Below are positions 21,209-27,966 of a stretch of DNA of 59,005 nucleotides, piece after piece. The position numbers were made by a program, and so were the translations under genes. The stretch lies in the NCBI GenBank assembly GCA_946183145.1, contig CAMGZM010000015.1, forward strand, positions 1 to 59,005, written 5' to 3'. The DNA is from an uncultured Fretibacterium sp. GTDB lineage: Bacteria; Synergistota; Synergistia; Synergistales; Aminobacteriaceae. The notes beneath the pieces are model-generated. The model did no database searches and was not told where the DNA came from. It saw only the letters and a program-made list of their open reading frames with translations. Within the stretch, counting starts at the first letter, position 1; each line of letters opens with the position of its first letter.

Positions 21209-21244
21209 AAAAAAAATCCCCCAGTCCATAAATGAAACCGGGGG
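21209..21244 (-). terminator. terminator of the purL / HEPN-protein operon
   Basis: On the minus strand ACCCCCGGT-type and ACTGGGGGA arms form an 8-pair stem followed by eight T residues. It lies about 40 bases beyond the stop of the 1018-residue gene and marks the boundary between host genes and the phage early operon. Confidence 0.7.
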
Positions 21245-21285: not shown

Positions 21286-24200
21286 TTAACCTGACAAAGC
21301 CGACAATGATTCTGTTATCTCACGGCATATATCCCGCGCCTCGTCTATATCCTTATCCGTAATGTATTCAGGATGAGCATGAAACACAGGATCTCTCACC
21401 CATTGCAATTTCGCAAACTTGTCCCGCCAATATGACCCATAAGGCTTATTCCCGAAATATTTCCCGAAACATTCAGCCCAATAATTACGCATAACAGCTC
21501 CCAATACATTAACGGGCAATACGTCAAGCAGTCCCGCATCAGGATTATATTTTCGCTTTGTCTTCTCCAATGAGCTCACATATTCATCTGACGCTAAAAT
21601 GGGATTAGCTTTCTTGAGTGCTTCATCAAGATTTTCGGGTGATGTGCCTAAAATGCGCGGGAGTTCTTCCTTCATCAATCTAACAATCATTTTCTGAACG
21701 CTGAGGATTCTCAGAATTTCGGGTGATAATTTGACTTCCGCATCCTGTAACATATCTCGTCCGCTGTAACTGTCGGCTAATTTCATGAATGCTTCACGTA
21801 TAACAGTGTCAGAATTTTCTTGTGAGAATATATTTGCGTCAAGCCCTAATTTTGACAGGAGAGTCCCGGAATATTCGAGGCTCTGAAGGAGTGATTTCAG
21901 CACGGGGAGTATGACATCAGAACCAGCGAGATAAGCGAGGGTCAATAATCCGTCAAAGAATTTCGTGAAATCATTAACCTCAAGGAGACTGCATCCAGAG
22001 AGGGAGAATTTTTGCGCCGACCATTTCCCCGAAGAGCTGTGAAAGTGAAGGCCGTTGACGAAATACGAATAGACATAAATTCTCAGCCACGCATTATTGC
22101 TGTCAATGCGGCGTGTTTCCTGAATCTCGTCAGCAATTTTCAGCAGGCAGTAACGTCTTGCGGTGTCATAATTAGCCTCGTTCTTTGAAGCTCCGTCTAA
22201 CTGAGCGTAAATGAGGTATTCAAGCCCTTTATAGGCCATAATTCTGATATTGTCCTCTTCAGAAGCGGGATAAATTTTCTTGTCTTCATCATCGGCGAAC
22301 AGGAAGAAATTGTAGACGTAACGGGCCATGACGAAGCAACGTTCAGCGCGTTCGGAGTTAGTGAGTGATGAGTCGTCATTGTTGAAGCGGCTTACCATAG
22401 CGAGGTAATCGGCTCTGATTTCGCGTGCATGGCCTTTAGCGTAATACGAGTCTGTGAGATATTGCGAGCTGTATTTTCCGTTTGTGGGAATGCTGAGAAT
22501 TTTATCCTGCAAAAATTTGGGTAATTCGCTGAAAGTTTCGGGTACTGATGCCTTTTTGGGCATAATTTCGCCTGAAATTTGCGCTGAATTATCCTTAGTG
22601 CTGTCGACTGGTGTATATGCTTCGAGTGGTACATAGCCGCGAGTAATGAGCATCTCAATTTCTGGACTCATGTCATCGGGGATTTCTGGTACTGAGTCAT
22701 TCTGTGATTGGGGTGATAAGGCGTTAAGTCGCTCGCAGGCTTTTTTGACGAGGCCGGAATTTTCCCATGCTTTAACCTTTTCTTCTGGGAATGGGACTGC
22801 TGACTCTACATTCTGTATCTGAATTTTACCGCTGTCATTCATGCTCCGTGTGAATCTTACGGGGTGGCCTTCTGCTGACGGCTCAACCTCTAAGAACACG
22901 GCTAAAAGGGGGTCAGTGATATTTTTCTCGTTGAAGGTGAACAAGTCTCTGTTTTTTGTGCGAACTTTCCCGAAAGGCGGATTATTGTACCTGCTGAAAA
23001 AGTCTATTTCACCCTCTTCTGAAAGCACCGACATTACGTCAACCGAAAGAGTCGGCATATCCTCAGTTTTTTCTTTAACGTCATAAGCGGCCGGGCCTTC
23101 TACGTTATTGCCGAGCCTGAACGTTACGCGTATCATGGGCTTCATTTTCCCGCAAGTCAATAATTTGCGCCGTAATACTCTATCTTCAACCTGATTCAGA
23201 TGTACGAACACTGAGCCTTCAGAACGTAACGGGACGTTATATTTTTTGAGTACGGGGCATTTTATGAAGCCGTATAATTTATCTCTGTTAGGGTTGAAGT
23301 AGTCAAAATCGCCCTCAAAACGCTGAGTTTTCCAGTCAATGCGCTTAATCTGCGGTTCATTTCTGACGGTGAGATTAGCTTTGTCGGAGATTCTCATAGC
23401 GTCATCAATAATCTTTGAGTCAGTCGGACATTCATCGAGCCAATTTCTTAAAGCGTCAATATTTTTGTGTGAGAATAATGCTTCTTTGTCGGGCAATGCG
23501 CTAATCTGATACTCCAAGAATTTCCATGAGACAGCGCATACGCACCTGAAGCAAAACTCCCTGTAATCGTCTGGAAAATCATTATTCATCACAATACTGT
23601 CAACAACCCATCTCAACAACGCATTAACCTGCGGAGGTTCAAGCCTTAAGATTACGGCGAAATTTTTGGGTGTCAAAGGCTCGCTTACGATGAGACATGC
23701 GGCGGCTAACATTCTTGAAGCTGCTGACGTTGAAGCGGTGAAAGCGGCCCTGAAATCATGAATGCCCATGAAAGTTTTTACGCTCCGTGCATTTTCACCC
23801 ATGAGGTAGAGAATGAACCCGTAAATCTCTGAAGCTGGAATGCTGTCTTTGTTTGACCGCCATAAATTTTTGGCCTCGTCTAATATTTGTCGCATCCTCA
23901 TAGAATACGGCCTGTCTTCATGAACTTTCACGGCGTAACTGTATTTCGTGAGTATGCTGTCAAGTGCTGACTGTACTTTGTCCTGCCTGTCAGTCCTGAA
24001 TTTTCTCACGTAATCGGCATTGAGAATATAGCTGTCAAGTTTAGAGTCAATATCATCATAACATTCATCAAGCTCATTAATGAACGGTGAAGTTTCAGGC
24101 ACAGCAGGAGCATGATGCGTAACGACAGGCAAAGCAGGGGGCTGGAACTGAGGCACGGAGGAAGAAAGCGGACTTATCCCCCAAATCATGGGATAAACGT

Positions 24201-24342
24201 AAAGAGCCTCGCCCGACTCATTCCCAAGCGCAATAAGCTCATCCTCGCACCTGAGGAGAACGCCGGAAGTTTTGCGCCCGTCCGGCATCAGCATAATCTC
24301 AACATGTTTGCCGAGATATTGCTCAATATTTTTCCGTTCCAA
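21286..24342 (-). CDS. 1018-residue protein with LSm-like, cold-shock-like and HEPN-like regions
   Basis: Starts at TTG (24340-24342), 11 bases after AGGAG and 15 bases after the purL stop, so it is in the purL operon. I do not recognise the whole protein. Residues 1-55 resemble an LSm/Hfq-like fold (YLGKHVEIMLMPDGRKTSG, VLLRCEDELIALG). A helical region of about 250 residues follows. Residues 355-425 (KLYGFIKCP, SVFVHLNQVED, VTFRLGNNVEGPAAYDV) and 455-500 (FGKVRTKNRDLFTFNEKNI, then PVRF) each have cold-shock/OB-like strand order. After a linker, residues 640-920 are helical. The last 80 residues look like a Swt1-type HEPN domain with R983-x4-H988 (RDPVFH), the catalytic spacing of HEPN RNases. 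Inference: an RNA-binding and possibly RNA-cleaving factor, with a host or defence role. Confidence 0.6.
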   Translation of the reverse strand: MERKNIEQYLGKHVEIMLMPDGRKTSGVLLRCEDELIALGNESGEALYVYPMIWGISPLSSSVPQFQPPALPVVTHHAPAVPETSPFINELDECYDDIDSKLDSYILNADYVRKFRTDRQDKVQSALDSILTKYSYAVKVHEDRPYSMRMRQILDEAKNLWRSNKDSIPASEIYGFILYLMGENARSVKTFMGIHDFRAAFTASTSAASRMLAAACLIVSEPLTPKNFAVILRLEPPQVNALLRWVVDSIVMNNDFPDDYREFCFRCVCAVSWKFLEYQISALPDKEALFSHKNIDALRNWLDECPTDSKIIDDAMRISDKANLTVRNEPQIKRIDWKTQRFEGDFDYFNPNRDKLYGFIKCPVLKKYNVPLRSEGSVFVHLNQVEDRVLRRKLLTCGKMKPMIRVTFRLGNNVEGPAAYDVKEKTEDMPTLSVDVMSVLSEEGEIDFFSRYNNPPFGKVRTKNRDLFTFNEKNITDPLLAVFLEVEPSAEGHPVRFTRSMNDSGKIQIQNVESAVPFPEEKVKAWENSGLVKKACERLNALSPQSQNDSVPEIPDDMSPEIEMLITRGYVPLEAYTPVDSTKDNSAQISGEIMPKKASVPETFSELPKFLQDKILSIPTNGKYSSQYLTDSYYAKGHAREIRADYLAMVSRFNNDDSSLTNSERAERCFVMARYVYNFFLFADDEDKKIYPASEEDNIRIMAYKGLEYLIYAQLDGASKNEANYDTARRYCLLKIADEIQETRRIDSNNAWLRIYVYSYFVNGLHFHSSSGKWSAQKFSLSGCSLLEVNDFTKFFDGLLTLAYLAGSDVILPVLKSLLQSLEYSGTLLSKLGLDANIFSQENSDTVIREAFMKLADSYSGRDMLQDAEVKLSPEILRILSVQKMIVRLMKEELPRILGTSPENLDEALKKANPILASDEYVSSLEKTKRKYNPDAGLLDVLPVNVLGAVMRNYWAECFGKYFGNKPYGSYWRDKFAKLQWVRDPVFHAHPEYITDKDIDEARDICREITESLSALSG

Positions 24343-24357
24343 AAATTAACAACTCCT

Positions 24358-27300
24358 TTATGATTTTGCGAAATATTTACAGGCCGCCTCAAAAAATCTC
24401 ACATCATAATTACCCGCAACATTCCTGTAAAGATTTCTCCCGTTGCGCTCAATATGTCCCATTCGCCCGATAATTCTGCCGTCTGGTGATGATATACATT
24501 CGACAGCATATTTTGAGCCTGAGGGATTATACTGCGTTGACATTGACGGCTTCCCATCATAATCGCAGTACTGTGCGCAAATCTGCCCGTTCATCATTAA
24601 CCGCCTGAACTCCTCCTCATCACACAAAAATCTTCCTTCACCGTGCGAAATTGGCATAGAATACACATCACCTTTATGCGTTAAGCTCATCCACGGAGAA
24701 TTATTGCTCACTACTACAGAGCGTATTATTCTCGACTGATGCCGCCCGATTCTGTTGAATGTCAATGTTGCTGACAGCTCAGAAGGCTTTACGAATTTCC
24801 CATGAGGCAATAACCCTGTTTTTATGAGTGCCTGAAATCCGTTGCATATCCCGCAGATTAACCCGCCTCGCTCATCAATGAGATTTTCTACAGCACTTCT
24901 CACAACAGGACTCCTCAGAAATATAGCGATGAATTTCCCGCTTCCGTCAGGCTCATCACCATTTGAGAAGCCTCCGGGAATGATTAACGCCTGTGAATCT
25001 CTCAGCGCATCAGAAAATCTTTCGGCCGACTCTCTCATCATTTCGGGCGTAAGCGAACGCACAACAAAAATTTCTGCGTTCCCTCCTGCCATATTAACGG
25101 CTCTTGCTGTCTCATACTCGCAATTAGTCCCTGTGAAGACTGGTATCAAGAATTTCGCGCTCTTAAGGGGATTAAGCGGGTATACAGCTATTTTATTGTC
25201 AAAATTTGGGGTAATGTTGGGCAAATCTTCAGGCTCATCCGTAAAAGTCGGGAAAATTTCAGCCATACATGAATCATACACCTTTTCGGCATCTTTGAGC
25301 GCAATTTTCACACCATCAGAAATTATTTCACCCTCATTAATCACATGGCCGATAACAGTATAACCCGCGTCATCAAGAACTTCTGCGAGGAACATACAGC
25401 GGTTGTCTTCAGGAACAAACGAGAACTCAAAGCCCAGATTATTCCCTAAGCACATTCTGAAAATCTCCGTCATAATCCCGTCCGTAACGAGCGAGCACGC
25501 AAGAATTTTCCCCTGACTGTTGAGCGTCATGATGTCGTCAAAAATCTTCAGCATTGACTCTTTCACCGGCAATCCTCGCGAGTCATATTCAGGCTTCATG
25601 ATTATGACCTTTGAGCCTGCTTGTTTGAACTCAGGGGAGATTATGCGGTTTACGTTTGAGACTGAGACCGCAAACGCCGCCAATGTCGGAGGAACATCGA
25701 GCCTTTTTCCGTCAGAACCCGTAAATGTTCCGCTCATTGAGTCCTTTCCGCCAATCGCGCCGACTCCGTAATCAATTTGCGCCCTCAATGCTCCCAATAA
25801 CGCCCCGAAAGGTAATCCCCATTTTGACGGGTCATCAGGTTTCCCGAAATATTCCTGCAATGTCAGCCAGCAATGACTCAAATCACCGCCGCTTGCCACA
25901 ATCCTGCATAACGCCTCAAGTACCGCGATATATCCCCCGTCAAACGGAGAAATTTCCGACAAATAGGGGTCAAATCCGTACGACATTAGCGAGCAGACAT
26001 CAGTCTCACGCATGGCGGGGATTTTTGCGCACATAGCCATAACAGGAGTTTTCTGGAATTTACCCCCGAAAGGCATCAATACCGTATTTCCTCCCACAGT
26101 AGAGTCAAATCTCTCAGATAATCCGCGCCCTGAACACGTATTAAGCTCGCTGAGGCATTGCGGGAATTTTGCGGGTGAAATGTGTGATTGTGATTTGGGG
26201 CTGACTTTCACCGTGATATGCCGTGATGCTCCGTTTGTGTTGATGAAAGCTCTTGAGATGTTTACGGTTTCTTTTCCCCGCCACGTCATACGCATTCTTC
26301 CTGAGTCATTAACCTTTGCGATAACAGTAGCTTCAACGCCTTCTGACAATGAAATATCCTTTACACGCTCTTCATTCTCGGGAGAAATCACGACCGCCAT
26401 ACGCTCTTGAGACTCGCTTACTGCAATTTCAGTCCCGTCAAGTCCTGAATATTTCAGCGGAACAGCATCAAGATTTATGTCAAGCCCGTCTGCCAATTCA
26501 CCGACTGCGACACTGACTCCGCCCGCACCGAAATCATTGCACCGTTTTATGAGCCTCGTAAACTCAGGATTTCGGAATAACCGTTGTAATTTGCGCTCTT
26601 CTGGTGCGTTGCCTTTCTGGACCTCAGCCCCGCATGTCTCAATTGATGATGCTGTATGTGAGACTGATGACCCTGTTGCGCCGCCTATACCGTCCCTGCC
26701 TGTCCTGCCTCCGAGAAGTAATACTATGTCGCCTGAAACGGGATTTTCGCGGATAACGTCATCTTCCTTCACAGCCGCGATTACTGCGCCGATTTCGAGC
26801 CTTTTAGCCCTGTAACCCTCATGATAGATTTCCCGTACAATTCCCGTCGGAAGCCCGATTTGATTGCCGTATGAGCTGTAACCCTGGGCGGCTTTTGTGA
26901 TGATTGTGCGCTGTGGTAATTTCCCGTCAATATTTTCTGTGAATGGATTTGCGGCTCCCGTTATCCTCATGGCCTGATAGACATATGCCCGGCCTGAAAG
27001 AGGGTCTCTTATCGCTCCCCCTATACATGTTGCGGCACCCCCGAAAGGCTCGATTTCTGTCGGGTGATTGTGAGTCTCATTCTTGAAGAGCAACAGCCAT
27101 TTTTCACCGTCAACATCAATTCTCACTGTGCACGCGTTATTCTCCTCGCTGTCGTAAATGTCGCTGAGTAATCCTTTTGACCGCAAATATTTCGCGCCTA
27201 TCGTGGCAATATCCATCAGCGTAACAGGCCGTGAGTCAGAATATCCCAGCTCTTTGCGTATATCGAGATATTTCCCGTAAGCGTCTCTCACAGCGTCATC

Positions 27301-27966
27301 AAGAATTTCCGCACCGTCAATATGAGTTGTGAATGTTGTGTGCCTGCAATGGTCGCTCCAGTAAGTATCAAGCACTTTTACTTCTGAGAATGTCGGTTTA
27401 CGTCCTTCGTCATCAAAATATTTCTTAACGCATAATAGGTCTTCACTGCTCATAGCAAGCCCCGTAACGCTCATAACGTCATCAACAGTTTTCACATCCT
27501 CAGGAACGGGATAATCAGCCTCAAGAGATTCATACTCGCCGATTTGCGCCTCTCTTGCCTCTACAGGGTTAATGATATGCTTTTTCACTGCCATGAAGTC
27601 AGACGTTTCACCGTAAAAGAGATATATCCTCGCAGTTCGTATCATTGGCCTGAAACCGAGCAATAACCCCGCGCACTGTACAGCCGCATCCGCCCTCTGG
27701 TCATATTGCCCCGGCAGATATTCGACAGCAAGGACATAATCAGCGTCAGGAATCGCCGTCAGTATATTGTCCGTGAAAGGCTCTGCGAAAATCGCGTCTC
27801 TGCACTCCTCAAGCTGTGAGTCACTCAAGCCCTGAACATCATAGCGGTTGAGAATGCGCAAGCCTGTGATGCCCTGAGAGCCTTTAATCGTCCTTATTTC
27901 AGCGAGAAGCGATAACGTTTCGGGACTTTGCGAGTCTTTTCGCTCCGTATAAATTCTGTGTACCAT
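24358..27966 (-). CDS. purL: phosphoribosylformylglycinamidine synthase, single-chain PurL
   Basis: 1202 residues from the ATG at 27964-27966 (SD GGGGG 8 bases away); a longer frame from 28008 has no SD. It catalyses the fourth step of purine synthesis, FGAR plus glutamine plus ATP to FGAM. The large one-chain type is used: an N-terminal PurS-like region, the ATP-binding synthase halves (WSDHCRHTTF near 215, HNHPTEIEPFGGAATCIGG near 300, DFGAGGVSVAVGELADG near 490) and a C-terminal glutaminase. The glutaminase shows LIIPGGFSNGDE, the nucleophile in GICNGFQ and the SHGEGRF histidine. All catalytic landmarks are present. No purine riboswitch was seen upstream. Confidence 0.95.
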   Translation of the reverse strand: MVHRIYTERKDSQSPETLSLLAEIRTIKGSQGITGLRILNRYDVQGLSDSQLEECRDAIFAEPFTDNILTAIPDADYVLAVEYLPGQYDQRADAAVQCAGLLLGFRPMIRTARIYLFYGETSDFMAVKKHIINPVEAREAQIGEYESLEADYPVPEDVKTVDDVMSVTGLAMSSEDLLCVKKYFDDEGRKPTFSEVKVLDTYWSDHCRHTTFTTHIDGAEILDDAVRDAYGKYLDIRKELGYSDSRPVTLMDIATIGAKYLRSKGLLSDIYDSEENNACTVRIDVDGEKWLLLFKNETHNHPTEIEPFGGAATCIGGAIRDPLSGRAYVYQAMRITGAANPFTENIDGKLPQRTIITKAAQGYSSYGNQIGLPTGIVREIYHEGYRAKRLEIGAVIAAVKEDDVIRENPVSGDIVLLLGGRTGRDGIGGATGSSVSHTASSIETCGAEVQKGNAPEERKLQRLFRNPEFTRLIKRCNDFGAGGVSVAVGELADGLDINLDAVPLKYSGLDGTEIAVSESQERMAVVISPENEERVKDISLSEGVEATVIAKVNDSGRMRMTWRGKETVNISRAFINTNGASRHITVKVSPKSQSHISPAKFPQCLSELNTCSGRGLSERFDSTVGGNTVLMPFGGKFQKTPVMAMCAKIPAMRETDVCSLMSYGFDPYLSEISPFDGGYIAVLEALCRIVASGGDLSHCWLTLQEYFGKPDDPSKWGLPFGALLGALRAQIDYGVGAIGGKDSMSGTFTGSDGKRLDVPPTLAAFAVSVSNVNRIISPEFKQAGSKVIIMKPEYDSRGLPVKESMLKIFDDIMTLNSQGKILACSLVTDGIMTEIFRMCLGNNLGFEFSFVPEDNRCMFLAEVLDDAGYTVIGHVINEGEIISDGVKIALKDAEKVYDSCMAEIFPTFTDEPEDLPNITPNFDNKIAVYPLNPLKSAKFLIPVFTGTNCEYETARAVNMAGGNAEIFVVRSLTPEMMRESAERFSDALRDSQALIIPGGFSNGDEPDGSGKFIAIFLRSPVVRSAVENLIDERGGLICGICNGFQALIKTGLLPHGKFVKPSELSATLTFNRIGRHQSRIIRSVVVSNNSPWMSLTHKGDVYSMPISHGEGRFLCDEEEFRRLMMNGQICAQYCDYDGKPSMSTQYNPSGSKYAVECISSPDGRIIGRMGHIERNGRNLYRNVAGNYDVRFFEAACKYFAKS

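Follow-up and report, generated by a model that had tools for sequence, protein, structure and literature searches.

The gene directly behind purL in the window (the whole 59,005-nt stretch of DNA analysed here, from an uncultured Fretibacterium sp.) encodes a protein of 1018 aa, in which LSm, cold-shock and HEPN modules appear to be joined in a single chain. The protein is stably kept in the purL operon, and a probability of about 0.5 is given to its being a self-contained HEPN endoribonuclease (RNase activity predicted) that senses RNA and serves in conflict or in surveillance.

Gene and Operon Layout

The 1018-aa ORF is real. It occupies positions 21286–24342 of the minus strand, begins with a TTG codon and starts 15 nt behind the purL stop, as an earlier sequence-only reading of this DNA had placed it. 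A Shine-Dalgarno sequence for the TTG at 24342 (AGGAG, 24353–24357, minus strand) is located between the two genes. The first gene, purL (24358–27966, minus strand; Pfam AIRS/FGAR-AT/GATase_5), probably starts at aa 15 of its mechanical ORF, from where the purL sequences of relatives align. An intrinsic terminator of 10 pairs followed by T8 (21218–21244, minus strand) closes the operon, and hairpin-T stretches of a similar kind lie 3′ of the gene in relatives (L003, L004, L005, L006, L015, and L016). The terminator search found none between purL and the ORF. Because of the 15-nt spacing, the strong terminator after the ORF and the absence of one between the genes, purL and the ORF look like a two-gene operon with a presumably shared transcription unit. 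The Rfam scan near both genes detected no RNA family, and a purine riboswitch at purL was rejected on the same scan.

A myovirus-like prophage of the contractile-tailed kind fills positions 1–21147 of the window; it has a tail sheath, a tape measure, a baseplate and a D5/DUF5906 primase, and the contig ends inside it. In the relatives, the gene is followed by the terminator and then, usually, by a permease gene of convergent orientation and a DUF362-like one, which in the window genome are located on another contig. Having a prophage as neighbour is peculiar to this genome and is therefore uninformative on function. The adjacency of the prophage, by which the sequence-only reading had kept a defence role open, was dropped as an argument.

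Domain Architecture

The protein was cut at conserved boundaries and each part was aligned with diverged relatives. The resulting layout (21286–24342, with all parts on the minus strand) is predicted to be LSm, helical, CSD, CSD-like, helical and HEPN. The RNA-linked modules named by the sequence-only reading, that is, an LSm-like fold, two cold-shock-like OB segments and a Swt1/HEPN-like domain with R983-x4-H988, are supported by profile matches, except that the second cold-shock segment remains weak and two large conserved helical regions had been missed.

The assignment of aa 1–62 (24157–24342) as an LSm/SH3-like (Sm-fold) domain is supported by family matches in the relatives, namely to DUF6897 (15 of 23), the RimP C-terminal SH3 (8 of 23) and LSM (1 of 23); one relative (L102) exceeds the RimP_C cut-off with 3.9e-7. 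These are small domains, which in the window protein are fused to CSDs and HEPN.

The cold-shock OB domain at aa 332–428 (CSD1, 23059–23349) is well supported by its profiles: Pfam CSD was matched in 21/21 members (best 4e-7), and the profile of this part finds CspB structures with an E of 0.002. The following segment, aa 436–545 (22708–23037), is a tentative OB/CSD-like one, weakly supported as a second cold-shock segment by its hhalign comparison with CSD1 (P 5e-4, probability 30%); it showed otherwise single stray weak matches and no solid Pfam match.

The two conserved helical regions together make up half of the protein. The first spans aa 86–325 (23368–24087, alignment A9) and is helical in a low-confidence model, and the second, at about aa 600–862 (21757–22545, alignment A8), is mostly helical. 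Neither aa 86–325 nor aa 601–861 gave a PDB match or a known family. A match of the full-length profile to nicotinamide phosphoribosyltransferase (E 0.25) was judged to be chance.

The C-terminal part, aa 862–1018 (21289–21759), is likely a HEPN domain, since the profiles converge on one superfamily and the R-[DN]-x3-H motif is invariant. The best family match is the Swt1-like HEPN (PF18731), with R-[ND]-x3-H common to both. HEPN_Swt1 was matched by 16 of the 20 members, with a best value of 1.2e-4 and always below the Pfam gathering cut-off, and the remaining HEPN-family matches among the members were to the RiboL-PSP, Apea and MAE_28990 HEPNs. Compared by hhalign with genuine Swt1-HEPNs of other Synergistota, the domain aligned through R-N-x3-H (P 4.7e-4, probability 32%). 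The predicted RNase motif, R983-x4-H988, is located at 21379–21396 (codons 21394–21396 for R983 and 21379–21381 for H988). Loss of this motif was looked for among the orthologues, and both residues are invariant, as R-[D/N]-x3-H, in 20/20 aligned HEPN domains, which are 28–82% identical to that of the window protein and include diverged ones of 28–49%. HEPNs with R-x4-6H are on record as metal-independent RNases (PMC3710099).

Structure prediction, proposed earlier as a check of the folds, did not confirm them. The HEPN domain modelled alone forms a confident helical bundle (pLDDT 79.5), whereas the AlphaFold model of the whole chain, made from seven sequences, has a mean pLDDT of 44 and is unusable. 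The fold search with the HEPN-domain model retrieved HEPN chains at Z 2.6–2.9, within the background of unrelated helical bundles, and no decisive structural match was obtained (Foldseek, VIA).

A C-terminal Swt1-like HEPN with R-N-x3-H is also found in a 515-aa frame of G014 (L115, 304–1848), together with an HD-type hydrolase-like and further domains.

Distribution and Evolution within the Genus

Relatives of the protein are present in 31 of the 43 genomes of the window's own Synergistaceae genus. None was found in about 145 other Synergistota; the search covered the 83 genomes of the family and then the order and phylum. A scan of 84,980 species, which detects close relatives only, matched nothing but six Synergistaceae MAG contigs, and phages, plasmids and IMG/VR contained no relatives of the protein. 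The gene or a rebuilt form of it lies directly behind purL, on the same strand, in all 27 genomes with the join on the contig, and the gap is within 30 nt in 19 of these.

The protein distances track those of purL in 22 genomes (Mantel r 0.81, 0/2000 permutations), with the protein changing 1.14 times as fast as purL. The dN/dS is 0.05–0.15 overall and about 0.01–0.12 in HEPN, values which are rough, several pairs being close to saturated at synonymous sites. The gene is under strong purifying selection, with HEPN among the constrained parts, and its inheritance within the genus is vertical and stable. A prophage-borne or mobile origin was rejected, because phages, plasmids and IMG/VR lack relatives and the gene follows the purL phylogeny.

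The full-length form is strongly clustered on the purL tree. The genomes without the gene include four beside G038 and three beside G040, and these absences inside the holder clade suggest losses, on a tree with several deep forks unresolved. A four-genome branch across the midpoint root lacks the gene at this place behind purL, and one of its genomes, G056, carries only a short paralogue. In genomes without the gene, the place behind purL is filled by unrelated genes. The orthologue of G058 (L027) is split by an apparent frameshift within the HEPN region, being either a pseudogene or an assembly error.

This mode of inheritance bears on a housekeeping role, in which the LSm and cold-shock domains would deliver mRNA or structured RNA to HEPN for turnover or maturation, with no part in defence. 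The vertical descent, purL-like rate and strong constraint fit such an endoribonuclease at least as well as a defence protein, and the locus fixed in most genomes and absent from mobile elements also speaks for it. However, the gene is missing in 12 of the 43 genus genomes, some of them within the holder clade, and in the other Synergistota searched, and is therefore dispensable. A housekeeping role is possible, but less probable than the conflict-type or surveillance one.

Rebuilt Forms and Paralogues

The gene has been rebuilt in several genomes. In G050, a 731-aa form (L033) is without the second helical region, and in G051 only an LSm-TPR protein is found behind purL. In G040, the purL-linked form consists of two ORFs (L093, 914–7449). 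The first encodes 1683 aa with LSm, the first helical region, two CSDs, TPRs, the second helical region and an AAA_16/STAND-like NTPase, and the second encodes another AAA_16/STAND-like NTPase and a HEPN with R-x4-H intact. This layout resembles the window protein with TPRs and two NTPases inserted ahead of HEPN, the order of the modules being kept. The NTPase-HEPN relative of G040 has a weak match to the PADLOC candidate PDC-M34B.

G033 has two CSD-HEPN relatives (L101 and L102), each preceded by a glycine-zipper gene. The glycine-zipper genes are 96% identical over their shared C-terminal stretch, with 134 aa of the second available. One of the CSD-HEPN relatives also adjoins a SpoVK/IetA-like AAA+ gene, and one adjoins the permease that flanks the place of the purL-linked gene in relatives. 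The AAA+/glycine-zipper cassette occurs without a HEPN gene in G045 (L138) and in another genus (L139, G141). Its glycine-zipper protein has about 480–530 aa and a possible nuclease-like middle part with the sequence RYQVKYG.

A better argument for defence than the prophage comes from the rebuilt versions, whether with STAND-like NTPases (L093) or with AAA+/glycine-zipper neighbours (L101, L102). Such associations are typical of conflict systems and stand against a purely housekeeping role. Together with the modular build of the protein, the rebuilt forms suggest that it arose as a conflict-type protein, for anti-phage defence or RNA surveillance, and is now stably inherited in the genus.

Short LSm-CSD-CSD paralogues of 310–496 aa, without HEPN, are found at scattered places in about 13 genomes, and several of them (among L094–L100 and L103–L105) lie behind or beside leuA-, argG- and lysC-like genes. 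The window genome has no such paralogue. Their existence indicates that the RNA-binding part can work alone, which favours a regulator that does not cut, such as an RNA chaperone or a protein controlling translation, in which HEPN would only dimerise or bind RNA; inactive HEPN domains are known in other proteins (PMC3710099). Inactive HEPNs, however, lose the motif, and R983 and H988 never vary in the 20 domains, so that a non-cutting regulator is improbable.

The same paralogues bear on the nucleotide-linked role that the sequence-only reading had drawn from the purL position. The linkage itself is real (27/27), but the short paralogues adjoin unrelated anabolic genes, and it is more likely for this reason that the purL position serves expression than a purine function. 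An RNase with its activity or expression tied to purine supply through purL would account for the tight conserved linkage and the putative shared transcription unit, but is very improbable given the leuA-, argG- and lysC-like neighbours of the paralogues, the unrelated genes behind purL where the gene is absent and the lack of a riboswitch in the Rfam scan.

Comparison with Known Systems

HEPN domains combined with cold-shock-like OB folds are already known, both as STAND fusions (PMC3710099) and in the CoCoNuTs (PMC11090510). The HEPN-STAND NTPases with Csp-like OB folds on record (PMC3710099) share HEPN and the OB folds with the window protein, and the G040 form shares also the STAND-like NTPases. 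Published HEPN-STAND proteins, however, have the HEPN at the N-terminus and the OB folds at the C-terminus, whereas the window protein lacks an NTPase but has in addition LSm and the two helical regions.

Similarly to the window protein, CoCoNuT type IV restriction systems combine CSD-like OB folds with HEPN nucleases (PMC11090510). The SpoVK-like AAA+ and glycine-zipper pair in their loci, which may be a defence cassette in its own right (PMC11090510), has a counterpart beside the G033 relative. On the contrary, the CoCoNuT parts McrB/McrC, coiled-coil, helicase and SmpB-like are absent near the window gene; the operon comprises purL and the window gene only, with no McrB/McrC homologues.

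In the Ava_2192 type of Swt1-like HEPN proteins, HEPN is fused to a DUF499 AAA+ ATPase. Such an ATPase is missing from the window protein, its gene has no restriction-modification neighbours, and its HEPN is C-terminal, behind the LSm and CSD modules. Other Synergistota have proteins resembling the Ava_2192 type, in which HEPN is N-terminal.

A toxin-antitoxin pair (HEPN/MNT and alike) was rejected. purL is the sole conserved neighbour and a terminator follows, which argues against such a pair, and no antitoxin partner was found. None of the PADLOC models matches the window protein. Each of the LSm, cold-shock and HEPN parts is common by itself. Their union in a single bacterial chain, as well as the polymorphic purL-linked place, was however not found in the literature searched, in agreement with the sequence-only reading, which knew of no described system with this layout.

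Proposed Function

For the preferred reading, an RNA-sensing HEPN endoribonuclease, we infer RNA binding, autoinhibition, cleavage, a trigger and a biological role from its parts. The LSm and cold-shock domains would bind RNA and, probably, bring the protein into oligomers, and the two helical regions may form a scaffold keeping the C-terminal HEPN inactive. Upon loading of the protein on foreign or aberrant RNA, two HEPN domains would pair and cut RNA by means of R983 and H988. Such a protein would need no partner gene, and transcription of the purL operon would provide steady expression, a purine signal not being required.

A wider reading, which is put forward tentatively and is rather unlikely as it stands, is that of a family of immune ribonucleases which sense RNA and are confined to this genus. 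The LSm-CSD sensor half would be fixed, and the effector half would be rebuilt behind purL between close relatives as a direct HEPN, a STAND-type NTPase with HEPN, or LSm-TPR alone. If true, bacteria would here have an innate RNA sensor with a stable place in the chromosome.

Stably inherited beside a core metabolic gene and outside defence islands, the gene would be missed by guilt-by-association searches for immune genes. Its natural forms, some with NTPases and some lacking them, and the nuclease-free paralogues offer ready comparisons for the wiring of RNA sensing to HEPN.
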